Virus record (IMG/VR): IMGVR_UViG_3300044941_000073
Location: 1-21,929 of that record
DNA length: 21,929 nt
Source of the DNA: a virus
Direction: 5' to 3' (one strand)
In this document: positions 13,738 through 21,841 of the stretch, one piece after another
How positions within the stretch are numbered: position 1 is the first letter of the stretch
How the letters are laid out: the number at the start of each line of letters is the position of its first letter
Notes under the pieces: model-generated
What the model was told of the DNA's origin: nothing
Database searches by the model: none
What the model saw: only the letters and a program-made list of their open reading frames with translations
Program-made: the position numbers and the translations under genes

Positions 13738-15347
13738 CGCACTCCTCCATAGCGTTGATTAATGTTATAGTGCTGACGTATTCGCTTGCGCCTGCTACTC
13801 ATAACACCATTACGGGTAGGTGTCGCCGATTGACAAATCATCACCATCCCGTCAAGACAGTCATCGTGTGCCCCACTTCTAGGAAAAAACTGAATCTCTT
13901 CCATAAGGATGGTATTTTTGGCCATCCAAGTCATCAGGTAAACTTGGTGATTTACAAACAACGGTTCCAAGTACGTAACGATACGTGCTTTCTTTTCTCC
14001 TTCTGCACGGTACTCACGTAGCGCAACTGGCTTAAACCTGCTGAACGATTGACGTATGGTGTACATCAACGCTTGACCAAGTTTCTCGTTATCAATGGTC
14101 AAGGCGTTCAATTTCCACCTGTCCACTAGCTCAAACACCAACCGCACTGTTTCTTCTGGCTTGAACTTACCTACCTTTAGGTCAAACAGATAAAGACTTC
14201 TGTTGGAGTCCAGTCCACCAACCATGAGCACAGTATTGTCAGCACGTTTACTTTGCGAGATAGCTGGGTCAACTACTAGAATCGGCTTTACTCTAGTTGG
14301 CGGGGAATTGTGACTGGTACGTATCTCGATGACACCATCATCCTTGATGATAAGTTGTGATGGATTAATGTACTGAATGTTATCCGCGTTCAGTACTGTT
14401 TCTTCATCCGTCATTATTGTGTTCAAATACTGTGAGGCAAACCGTCGCATACCGTTAGGCAACCTCATCAGTCTTGACTTTAAACGTGATACTACCTCGG
14501 CGTTGAATCGCTCAGGCCATAAATACCCGTCACTGTCATCCTTGCCGTTGGCGTAGATGTTGCGCTTGAAAACTGCATAGTCCTCACTACCGTCACCCTG
14601 TTCTTCATCCGATAAATCCTCACCCGTGTAAACACCATACAAGTCACGGTAGTAGTAGCGGGTACCCAGAATCAGAAACTCTCCACCTAGGTCGGTGTCA
14701 GGGTTGTATGGGTCGATGACACTCTCAACGTCACCAACCCAGTCCATAATCTTTTCCCGTCGTTCTGCTGTCTGACTGTTCTCAAACGTAACCACGTCAT
14801 CCAAAATCGCTATGTCAAAGTGGAAGCCAGTCGATGGGCTGCCAACTGATGCCGCTAACAGTGTTGGCTCCTTCATAATTTTGGGACGCAGTACCTGGAT
14901 TGCATCCACGCGCCATACGGTTTTACGGTCAACTTCCTCATCACCTGCTGACTGGTTATCAAGTTGTGGAATTAATCTACCGTATCGAGGGTGTGTATTC
15001 CAAACGGTTTCCTGAAGATGGGTGTCTTCCAAGTACTGTTTGACTTCACGCACAAACGAAGTCGCAAGTGGTTTGGTCGCAGTCCCTACCAGAATGCGAA
15101 TACATGGGTTCTGGTAGATACGCCATAGGACGTAGCCTACTGAACACAGTGTAGACTTAAGGTGACCACGTGGCATAAGCACCAACCGTCTAGGGTGTTG
15201 GTGTCGGTCAGCGATGAACGCAGCCAGTTCCTTGTGGATGGTACTGAACGACTTGGTACCTCCTTTAAAGTTAATCAGGTCTATGAAGTCCCAGTAGGAC
15301 TCCATAGCCTGCACCTTTTTGCGGTAAAGTGATTTACTTTCCGTCAT
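13734..15347 (-). CDS. terL: Large terminase subunit (ATPase and nuclease)
   Basis: The motor that pumps DNA into the prohead and cuts concatemers. Numbering from ATG at 15347 (537 residues): Walker A-like LMPRGHLKST at about 57-66, the T7-like form lacking the classic GxxxxGK; Walker B DIAILDD at about 178-184; coupling motif LGTRY at about 227-231. The RNase H-like nuclease has DP in ILVVDPAIS (D360), the acidic pair in TIDNEK (about 419-421), and HDDCLD at about 494-499. All expected catalytic residues are present. The frame extends upstream to 15404, but that would overlap the holin candidate by 71 bases. ATG 15347 overlaps it by only 14. ATG 15305 (behind AAAGGTG) is a second alternative. 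The stop overlaps the portal's GTG. A small terminase is not recognised; see the coiled-coil proteins just upstream. Confidence 0.93.
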   Translation of the reverse strand: MTESKSLYRKKVQAMESYWDFIDLINFKGGTKSFSTIHKELAAFIADRHQHPRRLVLMPRGHLKSTLCSVGYVLWRIYQNPCIRILVGTATKPLATSFVREVKQYLEDTHLQETVWNTHPRYGRLIPQLDNQSAGDEEVDRKTVWRVDAIQVLRPKIMKEPTLLAASVGSPSTGFHFDIAILDDVVTFENSQTAERREKIMDWVGDVESVIDPYNPDTDLGGEFLILGTRYYYRDLYGVYTGEDLSDEEQGDGSEDYAVFKRNIYANGKDDSDGYLWPERFNAEVVSRLKSRLMRLPNGMRRFASQYLNTIMTDEETVLNADNIQYINPSQLIIKDDGVIEIRTSHNSPPTRVKPILVVDPAISQSKRADNTVLMVGGLDSNRSLYLFDLKVGKFKPEETVRLVFELVDRWKLNALTIDNEKLGQALMYTIRQSFSRFKPVALREYRAEGEKKARIVTYLEPLFVNHQVYLMTWMAKNTILMEEIQFFPRSGAHDDCLDGMVMICQSATPTRNGVMSSRRKRIRQHYNINQRYGGVR

Positions 15348-18282: not shown

Positions 18283-18312
18283 ATCTAGCTACTCCTTTCA
18301 TTTGTTGACTCA

Positions 18313-18341
18313 AGTCTAACACCCATCCCGGTTGGTGTCAA
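18313..18341 (-). promoter_or_regulatory. Leftward sigma70 promoter with 20-bp operator dyad
   Basis: Read leftward: TTGACA (18336-18341), 17-base spacer, TAGACT (18313-18318). The dyad ACACC-N10-GGTGT occupies 18319-18338, overlapping the end of the -35 and filling the spacer. A bound repressor here would block polymerase. It drives the genes at 18282 and 18023. Confidence 0.8.
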
Positions 18342-18427
18342 CCCCTTATGCGGCAAAAGAGTTGCGGTTTGGAGGCAATGTGACGTGCACTGACGGAAGT
18401 AAGAAAATAGTACCAGTGACTTTTGGC

Positions 18428-18456
18428 ATTGTACCCCGGCCGCCCGATTTTGTCAA
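18428..18456 (-). promoter_or_regulatory. Second leftward sigma70 promoter without the dyad
   Basis: Read leftward: perfect TTGACA (18451-18456), 17-base spacer, TACAAT (18428-18433, 5 of 6). The spacer is GC-rich and lacks ACACC..GGTGT. It would read into the promoter at 18313 and the leftward small genes, giving an unregulated or differently regulated entry. Confidence 0.75.
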
Positions 18457-18522
18457 CCCCCCTTGTGACACTTTTTCCTGTTACAATTCGTTACCTATCA
18501 AAATCCCTTATCATTCGCCCCA

Positions 18523-18727
18523 TTCGATAAGTTATCCGCGCGCTTCGATAAGTTATCCGCACCACTGTATCCGCATTCGATACGATATCGCCAATGCTCC
18601 AAACGCCCATGCAGAGAGGGTTTCAGCGATTAGTGCCCGCGAATCGCCAATGAATTCGGTAAATTGCAACCCGTTACGATAAGATATTTCCGATAAAATT
18701 GTGCTCCGTTCGATAAGGAAAACAAAT
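18523..18727. repeat. TTCGATAAG repeat cluster with a 17-bp pair 21 bp apart
   Basis: TTCGATAAGTTATCCGC occurs exactly at 18523-18539 and 18544-18560, offset by 21 bp, about two helical turns. Each contains the palindrome GATAAGTTATC. Degenerate relatives follow: TATCCGCATTCGATA near 18568-18582, ACGATAAGA and CCGATAAAA around 18677-18698, and TTCGATAAGG around 18709-18718. GTTATCCGC is near but not equal to the DnaA box TTATCCACA. It looks like a protein-binding cluster (regulator or initiator). Confidence 0.7.
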
Positions 18728-18767
18728 GGATGCAAATGGAAGGCCATATAAAGTGTCACAATACCCC

Positions 18768-18803
18768 TTGACGGGGGGGTCACGGCCATGGTATAATGGC
18801 CGT
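18768..18803 (+). promoter_or_regulatory. Rightward promoter with perfect inverted repeat around its -10
   Basis: TTGACG (18768-18773), 18-base spacer, TATAAT (18792-18797) preceded by TGG (extended -10). The 8-bp arms ACGGCCAT (18782-18789) and ATGGCCGT (18796-18803) bracket the -10, so a regulator would occlude it. No gene starts within the next 2 kb; any transcript would be non-coding and run through the repeat region. Confidence 0.7.
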
Positions 18804-18900
18804 CACGCCGCTAGAATCCGCACATATTTTCATACGCGCAGAGCAATCGTGACCGTTACTTCTGTACCGTGCAACGTAATCGCGCACCCGTACCTGTCAC

Positions 18901-18949
18901 TGTCTATACCTTTTTGCTACAGAAAGACGCTGTCAGAATCGCCTGTAAG
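18901..18949 (+). repeat. 49-bp repeat, copy 1
   Basis: Shares the skeleton TGTCTA..C..TTT..CTACAGA.A...C..TCAGAATCGCCTGTAAG with the copies at 20187 and 20467, without gaps over 49 bp. It is the most diverged copy and the similarity stops at 18949. Confidence 0.75.
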
Positions 18950-19110
18950 CCGTCCAGATACCGTTCAGGTACCGTAACCCCAGAAACAAATTTCAGACGT
19001 ACTACAGAGCCAAATAACGCGCGTAAAGTGACACCATACGGTACCGATTGAGGTGTTTATCCAGCAACCATCATAAAGTAACGTACTTCTGTCACGGGTA
19101 CCCGGCACCT

Positions 19111-19828
19111 TGTAACCCTGCGTCACGTGTACCCGATTGCTGTTGATTGTGACACCCACCTACGGTATCTTGTCACGCGTGCTTGTGGTTTCTGTCACCT
19201 GCGTATCTCTATTCGTGCACGTATCACCTTGTCACATGTACACGGTTGCCGTCACAGTCACAGGTTTGGTGTCACCTTATTCGTGTATCTGTACTTTGTT
19301 ACGTGTACCTGGTTGCTGTTGATATGACACCCACACAGAAGATACTTCTGTTGCTGCATAACACCCATCCGTATTGGTGTCACTGTACGTATTACCATGT
19401 AACTTCTGTCACGTATTACCGTATATCTGTTGCTGTTGATGATTGTGACACCCATACAGTCATGGTTAAGTATCTCTATGCAACAACACTCTACAGTAAG
19501 TACCATGTAACTTCTGTCACGTGTACTTGTGGTTGTTGTTGATATGACACCCCTAAGTCTTGATTGGTGTCATTATTACGCATAATGGCTACTTGTGCTT
19601 ATGCGTAAGTATTTCTATGCAACAACAGCAATACCTATCGCTATGTAACTTAAGTACTATGTAACTCCTATTACTGTTGCTGTTATATAACACCCATACC
19701 GTATAGGGGTGTCACTTTCTCGGTAACTAAACTACCTGGTACGTATTATCATGTAACTTTTGTCACGTAGTACTATGTAACTCCTGTTGTTGTTACTGTA
19801 TAACACCTACCCATATTGGTGTCACTAT
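19111..19828. repeat. Array of operator-like dyads and iterons
   Basis: Three interleaved elements recur. (1) ACACC..GGTGT dyads at 19361-19380 and 19803-19822 (20 bp, the same spacing as in the promoters at 18319 and 20792), 19690-19712 (ACACCC..GGGTGT, 23 bp) and 19545-19572 (TGACACC..GGTGTCA, 28 bp), plus half-sites near 19150, 19328 and 19447. (2) TGTCACGTGTAC-like blocks, followed in several units by TTGCTGTTGAT and a TGACACCC half-site, at about 19122, 19299, 19408 and 19516. (3) TGTAAC at 19111, 19399, 19506, 19644, 19660, 19752 and 19776. Unit spacing is irregular, about 110-180 bp. Several dyads read leftward resemble weakened promoters (GTGACA, 17 bases, TATGCA or TATACA). Confidence 0.75.
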
Positions 19829-19900
19829 TACGCATAAATACTACTTGCAAGTATATTGGTAATTATTTTTTTCTATGCAACAGCAGCAATATGTAACAAG

Positions 19901-19978
19901 GTACTACTGAACACTAGAGTTACATAGTACTACTGAACACTAGAGTTACATAGTACTACTGAACACTAGAGTTACATA
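19901..19978. repeat. Three perfect tandem copies of a 26-bp repeat
   Basis: The unit begins GTACTACTGAACACTAGAG and ends TTACATA; copies start at 19901, 19927 and 19953, and a fourth begins at 19979 but diverges after GTACTAC. Each copy holds GTTACA (reverse of the TGTAAC iteron) and each junction makes the palindrome TAGTACTA. The period is about 2.5 helical turns. Identity between copies suggests recent expansion. Confidence 0.95.
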
Positions 19979-19990
19979 GTACTACGTAAC

Positions 19991-20058
19991 AAGATAATAC
20001 TAGATACAAGTAATATATTAAATTATTATTTTTATATAATACAACAACAACAACAACA
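19991..20058. other. AT-rich stretch followed by CAA microsatellite; candidate unwinding element
   Basis: 19991-20042 contains only 6 G or C in 52 bases. It runs into CAA repeats (20041-20058). It lies directly beside the 26-bp tandem repeats. An easily melted stretch beside iterons is the usual arrangement at replication origins; this is inference. Confidence 0.5.
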
Positions 20059-20186
20059 CAACTAGAGACTTTCGTACAAAACTACCTACCCCCACTCCAT
20101 AGCCTCTCCCCCTCCCACGCGCCAAACAACACCACTCCCTTTCCGGTTGGGGTGTCACCAAAACGGCACTTACGGCCATTGCCATG

Positions 20187-20299
20187 TGTCTATGGCTTTT
20201 TCCTATAGAGAAACCCTCTCAGAATGACCTGTAAGGTGTTTGTACCCCCTTCTGGCTAGTACAGTACCCTTACCAGTTAAAGGCGGCCTTCCTGAGCCT
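20187..20299 (+). repeat. 113-bp direct repeat, copy 2 of the 49-bp family
   Basis: Aligns without gaps to 20467-20579 at an offset of exactly 280 bp. It contains CCTATAGAGAAACCCTCTC and later CTTCCTGAGCCT. The first 49 bp also match 18901-18949. Weaker similarity continues upstream, where both copies follow a CCGG(A/T)TGGG(G)TGTCAC segment. Confidence 0.8.
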
Positions 20300-20466
20300 G
20301 CTAGATGCCACAGAGACCACAAACGACCAGTGGGTACAGTACCAGTTACGGCACCCGGTTGCGATTGCCATATTCCCACTTGCCGGATGGGTGTCACGCT
20401 CTCCTTTGCCGCTTGGTGGTTGTACCGTTGCGGTTGTCATATCGCTCCCATTACCGCCTGCCCCTG

Positions 20467-20579
20467 TGTCTACAGCCTTATCCTACAGAAAAACCCTCTC
20501 AGAATCGCCTATAAGACACTTGACACCCCTTTTGGCTACCACAATACCTTGACCAGATTACTGGCACCTTCCTGGGCCT
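20467..20579 (+). repeat. 113-bp direct repeat, copy 3 of the 49-bp family
   Basis: Same skeleton as 20187-20299, with CCTACAGAAAAACCCTCTC and CTTCCTGGGCCT. Unlike copy 2 it contains TTGACACCCC (20519-20528), a half-site of the ACACC dyad with a -35-like hexamer but no -10 at usable spacing. Confidence 0.8.
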
Positions 20580-20604
20580 TACAGTAGCCATAGCGGTGAC
20601 GTTT

Positions 20605-20690
20605 GGCGAATACCTGTAGCCCATAGGTGAATACCTACATCCACCCGTGCACCTACCCCCACATCCGCAGCCAGGCGGTGAACACCTGCA
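20605..20690. promoter_or_regulatory. Operator-like cluster GGYGAAYACCTRYA, three copies
   Basis: GGCGAATACCTGTA (20605-20618), GGTGAATACCTACA (20626-20639) and GGTGAACACCTGCA (20677-20690). Start-to-start distances are 21 and 51 bp, roughly whole helical turns, so the sites face one side of the DNA. The core GGTGAACACC of the third is a perfect dyad. The cluster lies directly upstream of the tandem promoters at 20696-20765, a place suited to an activator or repressor. Confidence 0.6.
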
Positions 20691-20695
20691 CCCGG

Positions 20696-20726
20696 TACCG
20701 TAGTTACACGTAGAGTTTGGTATAAT
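20696..20726 (+). promoter_or_regulatory. Rightward extended -10 promoter, first of a tandem pair
   Basis: TATAAT at 20721-20726 preceded by TGG (extended -10); the -35 region is CCGTAG, far from consensus. GTAGTTAC (20700-20707) and GTAACTAC (20730-20737) form an inverted repeat bracketing the -10. It matches the copy at 20735-20765 in 25 of 31 positions. Confidence 0.6.
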
Positions 20727-20734
20727 CGCGTAAC

Positions 20735-20765
20735 TACCGTAATTATACGTGGGTTCTGGTATAAT
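20735..20765 (+). promoter_or_regulatory. Rightward extended -10 promoter, second of a tandem pair
   Basis: TATAAT at 20760-20765 with TGG in front, -35 region CCGTAA, 39 bp downstream of its twin. With a poor -35 in both, activation by a factor bound at the conserved TACCGTA or ACGT motifs is plausible. It would read into the gene at 20842. Confidence 0.6.
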
Positions 20766-20788
20766 TTAGAACAGCACCAAGCAGGCGA

Positions 20789-20817
20789 TTGACACCCACC
20801 GGGATTGGTGTTATTCT
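20789..20817 (+). promoter_or_regulatory. Rightward sigma70 promoter with 20-bp operator dyad
   Basis: Perfect TTGACA (20789-20794), 17-base spacer, TATTCT (20812-20817, 5 of 6). The dyad ACACC-N10-GGTGT (20792-20811) fills the spacer and abuts the -10. The predicted RNA start near 20824 leaves a short leader before ATG 20842. Confidence 0.85.
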
Positions 20818-20841
20818 GTTGCTGTTGAGTTGAGGGTGGAT

Positions 20842-21192
20842 ATGACAATCAACAATGCACTGGATGTTGCTCGTCGCAACGGGTATGCGTTTCTGTGGAA
20901 TAATGGCGATAAGTCACCTTACACTGGCTATGTCGTTGTGGATTATGCATCGTACGTTGAGTTCCCAGCAGAAGACGTTTCAGCAGATAACGTGCTGGCT
21001 GCGGTTGACGGTTGGAGCGGCGATGGTCTTTACTTTGCACTCAGCCACGATAGACTCTACCGTGGGTTTATCTACGTTTATCCAGTTGTACAAGCACCAA
21101 CCTTCAAGGATGTTTGTCGGTTTGCGCTTGAACCTGAATTGACATTCTTGCGCGTGGAAAACGACCAAAAAGTTTGCACACTTACCACTTGA
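20842..21192 (+). CDS. Small protein of a three-member phage paralogue family (member B)
   Basis: 116 residues, no recognised domain. Side by side with the product at 21244: NGYAFLWNNGDKSPYTGYVV (13-32) matches VGHSLVWYNTSKPFRGYML; VDGWSGDGLYFALS (55-68) matches IDGYNGYDALFMVS; RGFIYVYPV (74-82) matches EGVIYVHPV; FLRVENDQKVC (102-112) matches FIHVVDNKPVC. The two are clear paralogues, about 120 residues of alpha-beta character ending near a conserved VC. ATG 20842 is preferred to TTG 20830 because the RNA start is predicted near 20824 and GAGGGTGG precedes the ATG. No membrane segment or catalytic motif is visible. Small size and tight promoter control suggest an early host-interaction or regulatory role, unproven. 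Confidence 0.8.
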   Translation: MTINNALDVARRNGYAFLWNNGDKSPYTGYVVVDYASYVEFPAEDVSADNVLAAVDGWSGDGLYFALSHDRLYRGFIYVYPVVQAPTFKDVCRFALEPELTFLRVENDQKVCTLTT

Positions 21193-21217
21193 CAACTAAC
21201 CGTAGGGGTGTCACAAT
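21189..21217 (+). promoter_or_regulatory. Rightward sigma70 promoter overlapping the previous stop codon, half operator
   Basis: Perfect TTGACA (21189-21194), sharing bases with the TGA of the preceding gene, 17-base spacer, CACAAT (21212-21217, 4 of 6). Only the right half of the dyad, GGGGTGT (21205-21211), is well kept; the left side is ACAACTAACC. Confidence 0.6.
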
Positions 21218-21243: not shown

Positions 21244-21606
21244 ATGTTTCTTGAACGAGTTGAGGCTGCACTGGAACAAGTCAAGTCTGTTGGTCACTCA
21301 CTAGTTTGGTACAATACCAGCAAGCCGTTTCGCGGGTATATGTTGGCCAGACATGACAAGTGTGTTTCAATAACACATGACACTACTGCTACGGAGCTAC
21401 TTGACGCAATACGCGGAATCGACGGATATAATGGGTACGATGCCCTTTTCATGGTGAGTAACGAAGATGAGGGTGTAATCTATGTGCACCCAGTCTCGAA
21501 AGTGCGCAATTTCTATAAGGCACTAGATGCTGCACGTGGTACTGTAACCAAGTCGTTTATCCATGTTGTTGATAACAAACCAGTGTGTATCTGTGAAGCA
21601 GTGTAG
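21244..21606 (+). CDS. Small protein of a three-member phage paralogue family (member C)
   Basis: 120 residues, clear paralogue of the product at 20842 (shared GxxxxWxN..K.F.GY, IDGYNG, GVIYVHPV and a terminal F.HV.NKPVC), and a more distant relative of the product at 16837 (shared F-V/I-H-V/I strand, GY segment). The N-terminal helix MFLERVEAALEQVKSVG is amphipathic. The start at ATG 21244 follows AGGTGAT; the frame extends upstream to a GTG at 21208, which would lie in front of the predicted RNA start. The next gene follows after 11 bases, so the ribbon-helix-helix protein is probably co-transcribed. Having its own promoter despite following member B closely suggests the two are meant to be controlled as separate cassettes. 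Function unknown. Confidence 0.8.
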   Translation: MFLERVEAALEQVKSVGHSLVWYNTSKPFRGYMLARHDKCVSITHDTTATELLDAIRGIDGYNGYDALFMVSNEDEGVIYVHPVSKVRNFYKALDAARGTVTKSFIHVVDNKPVCICEAV

Positions 21607-21617
21607 GAGTGGAACCA

Positions 21618-21782
21618 ATGCGCAAGCGTACATTCTTGATTAGTCTAGATGAGTCAACACTTGACGAATTGCTGCGTGTTGCGTATGACCGTGTAGGCGG
21701 AAACATATCAGAGTTCATCCGTCGCGCTATCCATGCTGAACTAGACCGTATTCGCAATGGCAATGAAGAGGTAACGCTATGA
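21618..21782 (+). CDS. Ribbon-helix-helix DNA-binding protein (CopG/Arc-like), candidate repressor
   Basis: 54 residues: a short N-terminal strand RKRTFLISL (2-10), helix DESTLDELLRVAYDR (11-25), turn GGN, helix ISEFIRRAIHAELDRIRN. This is the length and order of ribbon-helix-helix repressors; the strand side chains around residues 3-9 would read bases in the major groove of a dimer. Such proteins bind short inverted repeats, often in cooperative arrays, and commonly repress their own operon. AGGAGTGG lies before ATG 21618. It sits between two promoters carrying parts of the ACACC..GGTGT dyad, so it is the obvious candidate reader of that operator; this link is inference. A toxin-antitoxin antitoxin is an alternative, but no partner toxin is visible here. 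Confidence 0.8.
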   Translation: MRKRTFLISLDESTLDELLRVAYDRVGGNISEFIRRAIHAELDRIRNGNEEVTL

Positions 21783-21811: not shown

Positions 21812-21841
21812 TTGACAAACCACCCTTAGGGGTGTTATCGT
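21812..21841 (+). promoter_or_regulatory. Rightward sigma70 promoter with degenerate operator
   Basis: Perfect TTGACA (21812-21817), 18-base spacer, TATCGT (21836-21841). The spacer has ACCCTTAGGGGT, a shortened form of the dyad (right arm GGGGTGT kept). The predicted RNA start falls in or near a second palindrome, CGTCAGACTGACG (21839-21851), which could be an additional operator. Confidence 0.65.

Follow-up and report, generated by a model that had tools for sequence, protein, structure and literature searches.

An irregular array of operator-like repeats in the early/late junction of a Saffermanviridae-like cyanopodovirus, tentatively read as an accessory operator cluster

Mycobacteriophage L5 carries stoperators, asymmetric 13-mers scattered throughout its genome in many copies, several of them off promoters, which are bound by a known repressor. 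The pSM19035 omega regulator, a ribbon-helix-helix (RHH) protein, has contiguous heptads in both orientations within control regions, and T7 has 7-mer repeats (SRL and SRR) beside its terminal repeats, without operator dyads. The repeat array described here compares with all of them. Like the L5 stoperators, it has many copies of a putative regulator site, the same site being found at promoters and at several positions away from them, although here we have dyads grouped within a single junction and the regulator is only a candidate. With the omega heptads it shares short repeated words in both orientations and a candidate RHH regulator encoded nearby (at a marginal Pfam score), whereas its half-sites lie 10–140 bp apart instead of forming contiguous short direct or inverted heptads, and no partition gene is seen in this half genome. 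As with SRL/SRR, these are podovirus non-coding repeats, and they would adjoin a direct terminal repeat (DTR), the start of which is predicted here at about 20063 by C-run analogy; in contrast to T7, the array has operator dyads. Pf-WMP4 (NC_008367, with annotated host-type promoters) resembles our phage in that nearly all its early genes are preceded by a TTGACA promoter, several of these promoters beginning with TTGACACCC, but lacks both the GGTGTCA right half and the array. These phages are reported to have terminal repeats and to lack an RNA polymerase of their own (PMC10140849, PMC6129581), and the sections of these two papers available to us describe no comparable array.

The window, i.e., the whole stretch of DNA analyzed, is a virus record of 21,929 bases representing approximately half of a podovirus genome. 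Judging from its TerL, portal and capsid genes and its two divergent gene clusters, it belongs to a Saffermanviridae-like cyanopodovirus, kin of Pf-WMP3 and A-4L. TerL is 40–49% identical over 95% of its length to those of freshwater cyanopodoviruses, the closest (ca. 44%) being from Pf-WMP3, PP and Mastigocladus phage CHP58, members or relatives of the Saffermanviridae, and capsid identity is 45%. The late genes (TerL, portal, capsid, and tail) are all on the minus strand, as indicated by the ORF list and gene families, while the plus-strand early genes begin at 20842. The junction between them contains 2,559 non-coding bases (2.56 kb), vs. roughly 300–1200 in isolates and ca. 400–1600 in most metagenomic relatives with a delimitable junction. 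A tRNA search of the whole window retrieved no genes. The coordinates of all features are collected in Table 1.

Table 1. Features of the junction and the adjacent early genes, in positions of the window.
Feature	Coordinates	Strand	Remarks
Non-coding divergent junction	18283–20841		Separates leftward late genes from rightward early ones; from ORF list, late-protein families and relatives with the same two-cluster layout
Late-side promoter	18313–18341	-	Embedded dyad TTGACACC-N10-GGTGTTA
Irregular array	19085–19890	+	Last unit starts 19398, 19506, 19644, 19752, 19892
Array dyad	19149–19176	+	GTGACACC-N12-TTGTCA, no TTGACA; GTGACA at the -35 place
Array dyad	19358–19382	+	ATAACACC...GGTGTCA, gap 10
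Array dyad	19544–19572	+	ATGACACC...GGTGTCA, gap 14
Array dyad	19687–19714	+	ATAACACC...GGTGTCA, gap 13
Array dyad	19800–19824	+	ATAACACC...GGTGTCA, gap 10
26-bp tandem repeat	19901–19985		3.3 perfect copies; contains GTTACATAGTACTAC, the inverted form of array word GTAGTACTATGTAAC
AT-rich tract and ACA run	20000–20062		Right of the 26-bp tandem
C5 run	20089–20093	+	DTR start predicted at ca. 20063–20070 by analogy with relatives
Early gene 1 promoter	20789–20817	+	Dyad TTGACACC-N10-GGTGTTA
Early gene 1	20842–21192	+	Paralogous to early gene 2; 116 aa, function unknown
Promoter of early gene 2 and RHH gene	21189–21217	+	Dyad TTGACAAC-N10-GGTGTCA
Early gene 2	21244–21606	+	120 aa, function unknown
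Third early ORF	21618–21782	+	54-aa RHH (CopG family) protein (21618–21779), candidate dyad regulator
Promoter after RHH gene	21812–21841	+	Imperfect dyad TTGACAAA...GGTGTTA

The array words were compared with 2000 dinucleotide shuffles of positions 19111–19828, and in none of the 2000 was the observed count of any tested word reached. Within this stretch TGTAAC occurs seven times (1.0 expected), TGTCAC/GTGACA 12 times (1.4 expected), TTGYTGTTGAT four times (0.003 expected), TGACACCC four times (0.02 expected) and the half-sites TRACACC/GGTGTYA 12 times (0.5 expected), with 365 bases under 10-mer repeats vs. 21 expected. The array noticed in a preliminary description is thus real and far above chance, but the bounds given there (19111–19828) were too short; it extends from about 19085 to 19890 and, together with the adjoining 26-bp tandem, covers about 0.9 kb. 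The same description saw one word order repeated from unit to unit; about three units (19111, 19398, and 19506) preserve it in full, while unit 19287 lacks TGTAAC and units 19639 and 19747 are degenerate. Four units (19111, 19398, 19506, and 19752) show an invariant 9-bp step in TGTAAC-N3-(T/C)GTCACG, the starts of the last units are spaced by 108, 138, 108, and 140 bp, and inverted TGTAAC (GTTACA) is also present within the 26-bp tandem repeat. A coding role was discarded, the 119-aa open frame at 19183–19542 having no match to any family, as was a structured RNA, with weak z-scores for the array (down to -2.8) and no meaningful Rfam match.

Six dyads with gaps of 8–14 bp are found in the junction, where 0.05 would be expected. 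All four gene-side promoters hold an embedded dyad, TTGACAcc-N10/11-GGTGTyA, that includes TTGACA and scores 10/12 as a sigma-70-type promoter, vs. none of the five array dyads with TTGACA, and the proposal that binding sites had been kept here without a promoter agrees well with this distribution. The specific replacement of TTGACA by GTGACA was overstated, since the hexamer at the -35 place is GTGACA in a single array dyad (that at 19149), ATGACA in another and ATAACA in the remaining three. Gaps vary among the array dyads (Table 1), vs. 10 or 11 bp in the gene promoters, and because a drift from 10 to 14 alters the helix face, several of these dyads may bind a symmetric protein poorly. A further gap-10 dyad (13802–13825) was located in the terminal part of the TerL gene, upstream of the minus-strand portal gene; for the late region, 0.1 such dyads would be expected.

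Early genes 1 and 2 are paralogous (28% identity, E 1e-10) and have similar promoters, so cassettes do duplicate in this phage. Decayed promoter-gene cassettes had been suggested as the source of the array, and pieces of promoter, operator and leader are indeed shared with the junction (a 14-bp match to the gene-1 leader and a 13-bp inverted match to the gene-2 leader), but the gene bodies have left no remnants, as tblastn gave no traces of the three early proteins, RHH included, in the junction (best E 0.33). The third early protein scores marginally against Pfam RHH_1 (20.9 bits vs. a cut-off of 20.5) and its structure model has two helices (pLDDT 79); a PDB sequence search gave no support and Foldseek no RHH match. 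No relatives of early proteins 1–3 were found in the phage collection, nor of protein 1 in viral contigs. Within view, i.e., in the half genome covered by the window, outside of which other possible regulators may lie, this RHH protein is the best candidate regulator, and given that its gene is downstream of a dyad promoter it could regulate itself.

Taken together, we lean, tentatively, toward considering the array a cluster of accessory operators that lack promoters, placed where early and late genes are controlled and meant for the early regulator of the phage. Such a reading is suggested by the enrichment of half-sites and dyads and by promoter-like dyads being confined to the gene side, by the operator also being found at the late-side promoter, by the RHH gene being among the first early genes, by a junction free of coding remnants and by a different operator-like word that is repeated at the early promoters and late side of two relatives (see below). 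The drifting gap length, the marginal RHH score and the coverage of the array by a single genome count against it, as do TGTAAC and TTGCTGTTGAT, which are not parts of the operator, and the left half could in part represent promoter sequence, since TTGACACCC is found at Pf-WMP4 promoters without the right half. The operator, TGACACC-N10-GGTGTCA, would serve the early-gene promoters and the facing late-side promoter, and the array half-sites, having no -35 box, could bind the regulator, most likely phage-encoded and with the RHH protein as candidate, yet start no transcription. We infer that protein binding at these extra sites would raise the local concentration of the regulator, form a coat along the junction or sequester part of the regulator, and the effect on transcription would be a sharper early-to-late switch. 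The array probably arose by local duplication of leader and operator pieces. A shared early/late operator, a candidate small regulator and promoter-less sites make a concrete, testable circuit for the early-to-late switch, one that matters in freshwater cyanopodoviruses of this group, which lack a phage RNA polymerase. What makes the array interesting is less a proven function than where it lies and the operator logic it shares.

Among the 80 TerL loci obtained with an alignment-based scan, the dyad is present in none but L002, which is 99.9% identical to the window and breaks off at 18517, short of the array, so that the array is known from one genome. Pattern scans located the array words in none of the related phages, the sole hit being one match in a 136-kb contig, and the operator in L002 alone, and there were no TerL relatives in bacterial genome contigs. 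In the nearest relatives with a junction, L018 and L019 (TerL 56–57%), the successive early promoters carry GACAACA as a direct repeat, with a further copy on the late side, and this operator-like word differs from the dyad of the window. Their junctions also hold two non-coding units of 120–122 bp with a conserved inverted pair. Relatives thus have the layout and some form of repeats in common with the window, but not the sites. A lack of conservation in relatives, named beforehand as what would undo the proposal, thus applies by half: sites and spacing are unshared, yet L018 and L019 keep other units at the same position. The tRNA genes of these two closely related phages differ at the same place of the junction (Leu in L018, 1739–1814; Trp in L019, 1106–1181). 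A family-wide TTACAT leader motif was dropped, as it probably reflects the usual CAT at transcription start.

These comparisons also bear on the rival that survives best, somewhat unlikely in our estimation, by which fragments of early promoters and leaders were duplicated through slippage or terminus-linked repair and are functionless, neutral or nearly so. Unit length, order and gap are irregular, regularity and AT content increase rightward up to the perfect 26-bp tandem at the end, relatives have unrelated repeats at the same place, and no relative shares the sites, all of which would fit such an expansion. However, 12 half-sites have been retained in 0.7 kb despite largely diverged spacers, and L018 and L019 are as similar in the junction (74.9% identity) as in their genes (75.5%), i.e., this type of region is constrained like coding DNA.

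Less probable, and in our view unlikely, is that array and 26-bp tandem act as a right-end signal in concatemer processing and DTR duplication, like the T7 DTR-flanking repeats. The DTRs of four isolates measure 234, 810, 216, and 107 bp. In four Saffermanviridae isolates (right ends of L003, L005, L098, and L100) the DTR starts 19–26 bp left of a C6 run, and in the metagenomic relatives L018, L020, L026, and L088 a tandem repeat ends 30–33 bp left of a C5–6 run. In the window (region 20041–20093), 26 bp separate the end of the ACA run from the C5 to its right at 20089, and by analogy the DTR may begin at ca. 20063, with the array just outside it, on the left. Repeats hence recur at this boundary, with the array directly to its left, but the isolates are almost repeat-free there, the DTR position in the window comes from analogy only, further C runs are present in the junction (18457, 20108, 20245, and 20656) and packaging has no need of shared operator words. 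The spacing of DTR start or tandem end to the C run is a possible genome-end signature, and such a fixed distance would allow the genome ends of uncultured relatives to be predicted. A broader idea, which we judge improbable, is that the terminus-proximal control region of this phage family keeps making new arrays at a fixed DTR-side position, here from the operator of the regulator, and that a single protein may thereby link the early/late transcription program to replication or to the processing of genome ends.

Less probable than the terminus reading, and improbable in our estimation, is that array and 26-bp repeats form an iteron-like replication origin beside an AT-rich unwinding tract, in spite of the repeats being followed by the 50-mer that is richest in A+T within the junction (5 G+C of 50) and of a DnaA-box-like cluster with TTCGATAAG iterons (18523–18575), given that this cluster is 600 bp from the array, the G+C skew of the junction remains negative across the array, changing only where gene direction does, near 20.8 kb, and the replication genes lie outside the window. 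AT tract and 26-bp repeats are there, while an initiator gene is absent from this half genome, and GC skew was set aside as uninformative for an origin. Binding of host DnaA within the array, also proposed at first, finds no DnaA-box-like site there, a cluster of three being 600 bp off at 18532–18575. The iteron-like cluster (TTCGATAAGTTATCCGC, 18523–18717) has three DnaA-box-like sites in 44 bp (18532, 18553, and 18567), and L002, a contig of another record, stops exactly within it (18517).

Other elements were seen around the array. A strong extended -10 promoter at 18768–18797 (TTGACG-N18-TATAAT, 11/12, with a GGCCAT/ATGGCC inverted repeat) points into the array, with no gene directly downstream. 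Ahead of the early promoter, at 20696–20765, a 31-bp word is present twice, each copy ending in TGGTATAAT, an extended -10 pair. Lastly, a second repeat family of 49 bp (ca. 80%) flanks the array on both sides (18901–18949, 20187–20235, and 20467–20515), and its copies at 20187 and 20467 extend to 132 bp, 280 apart.
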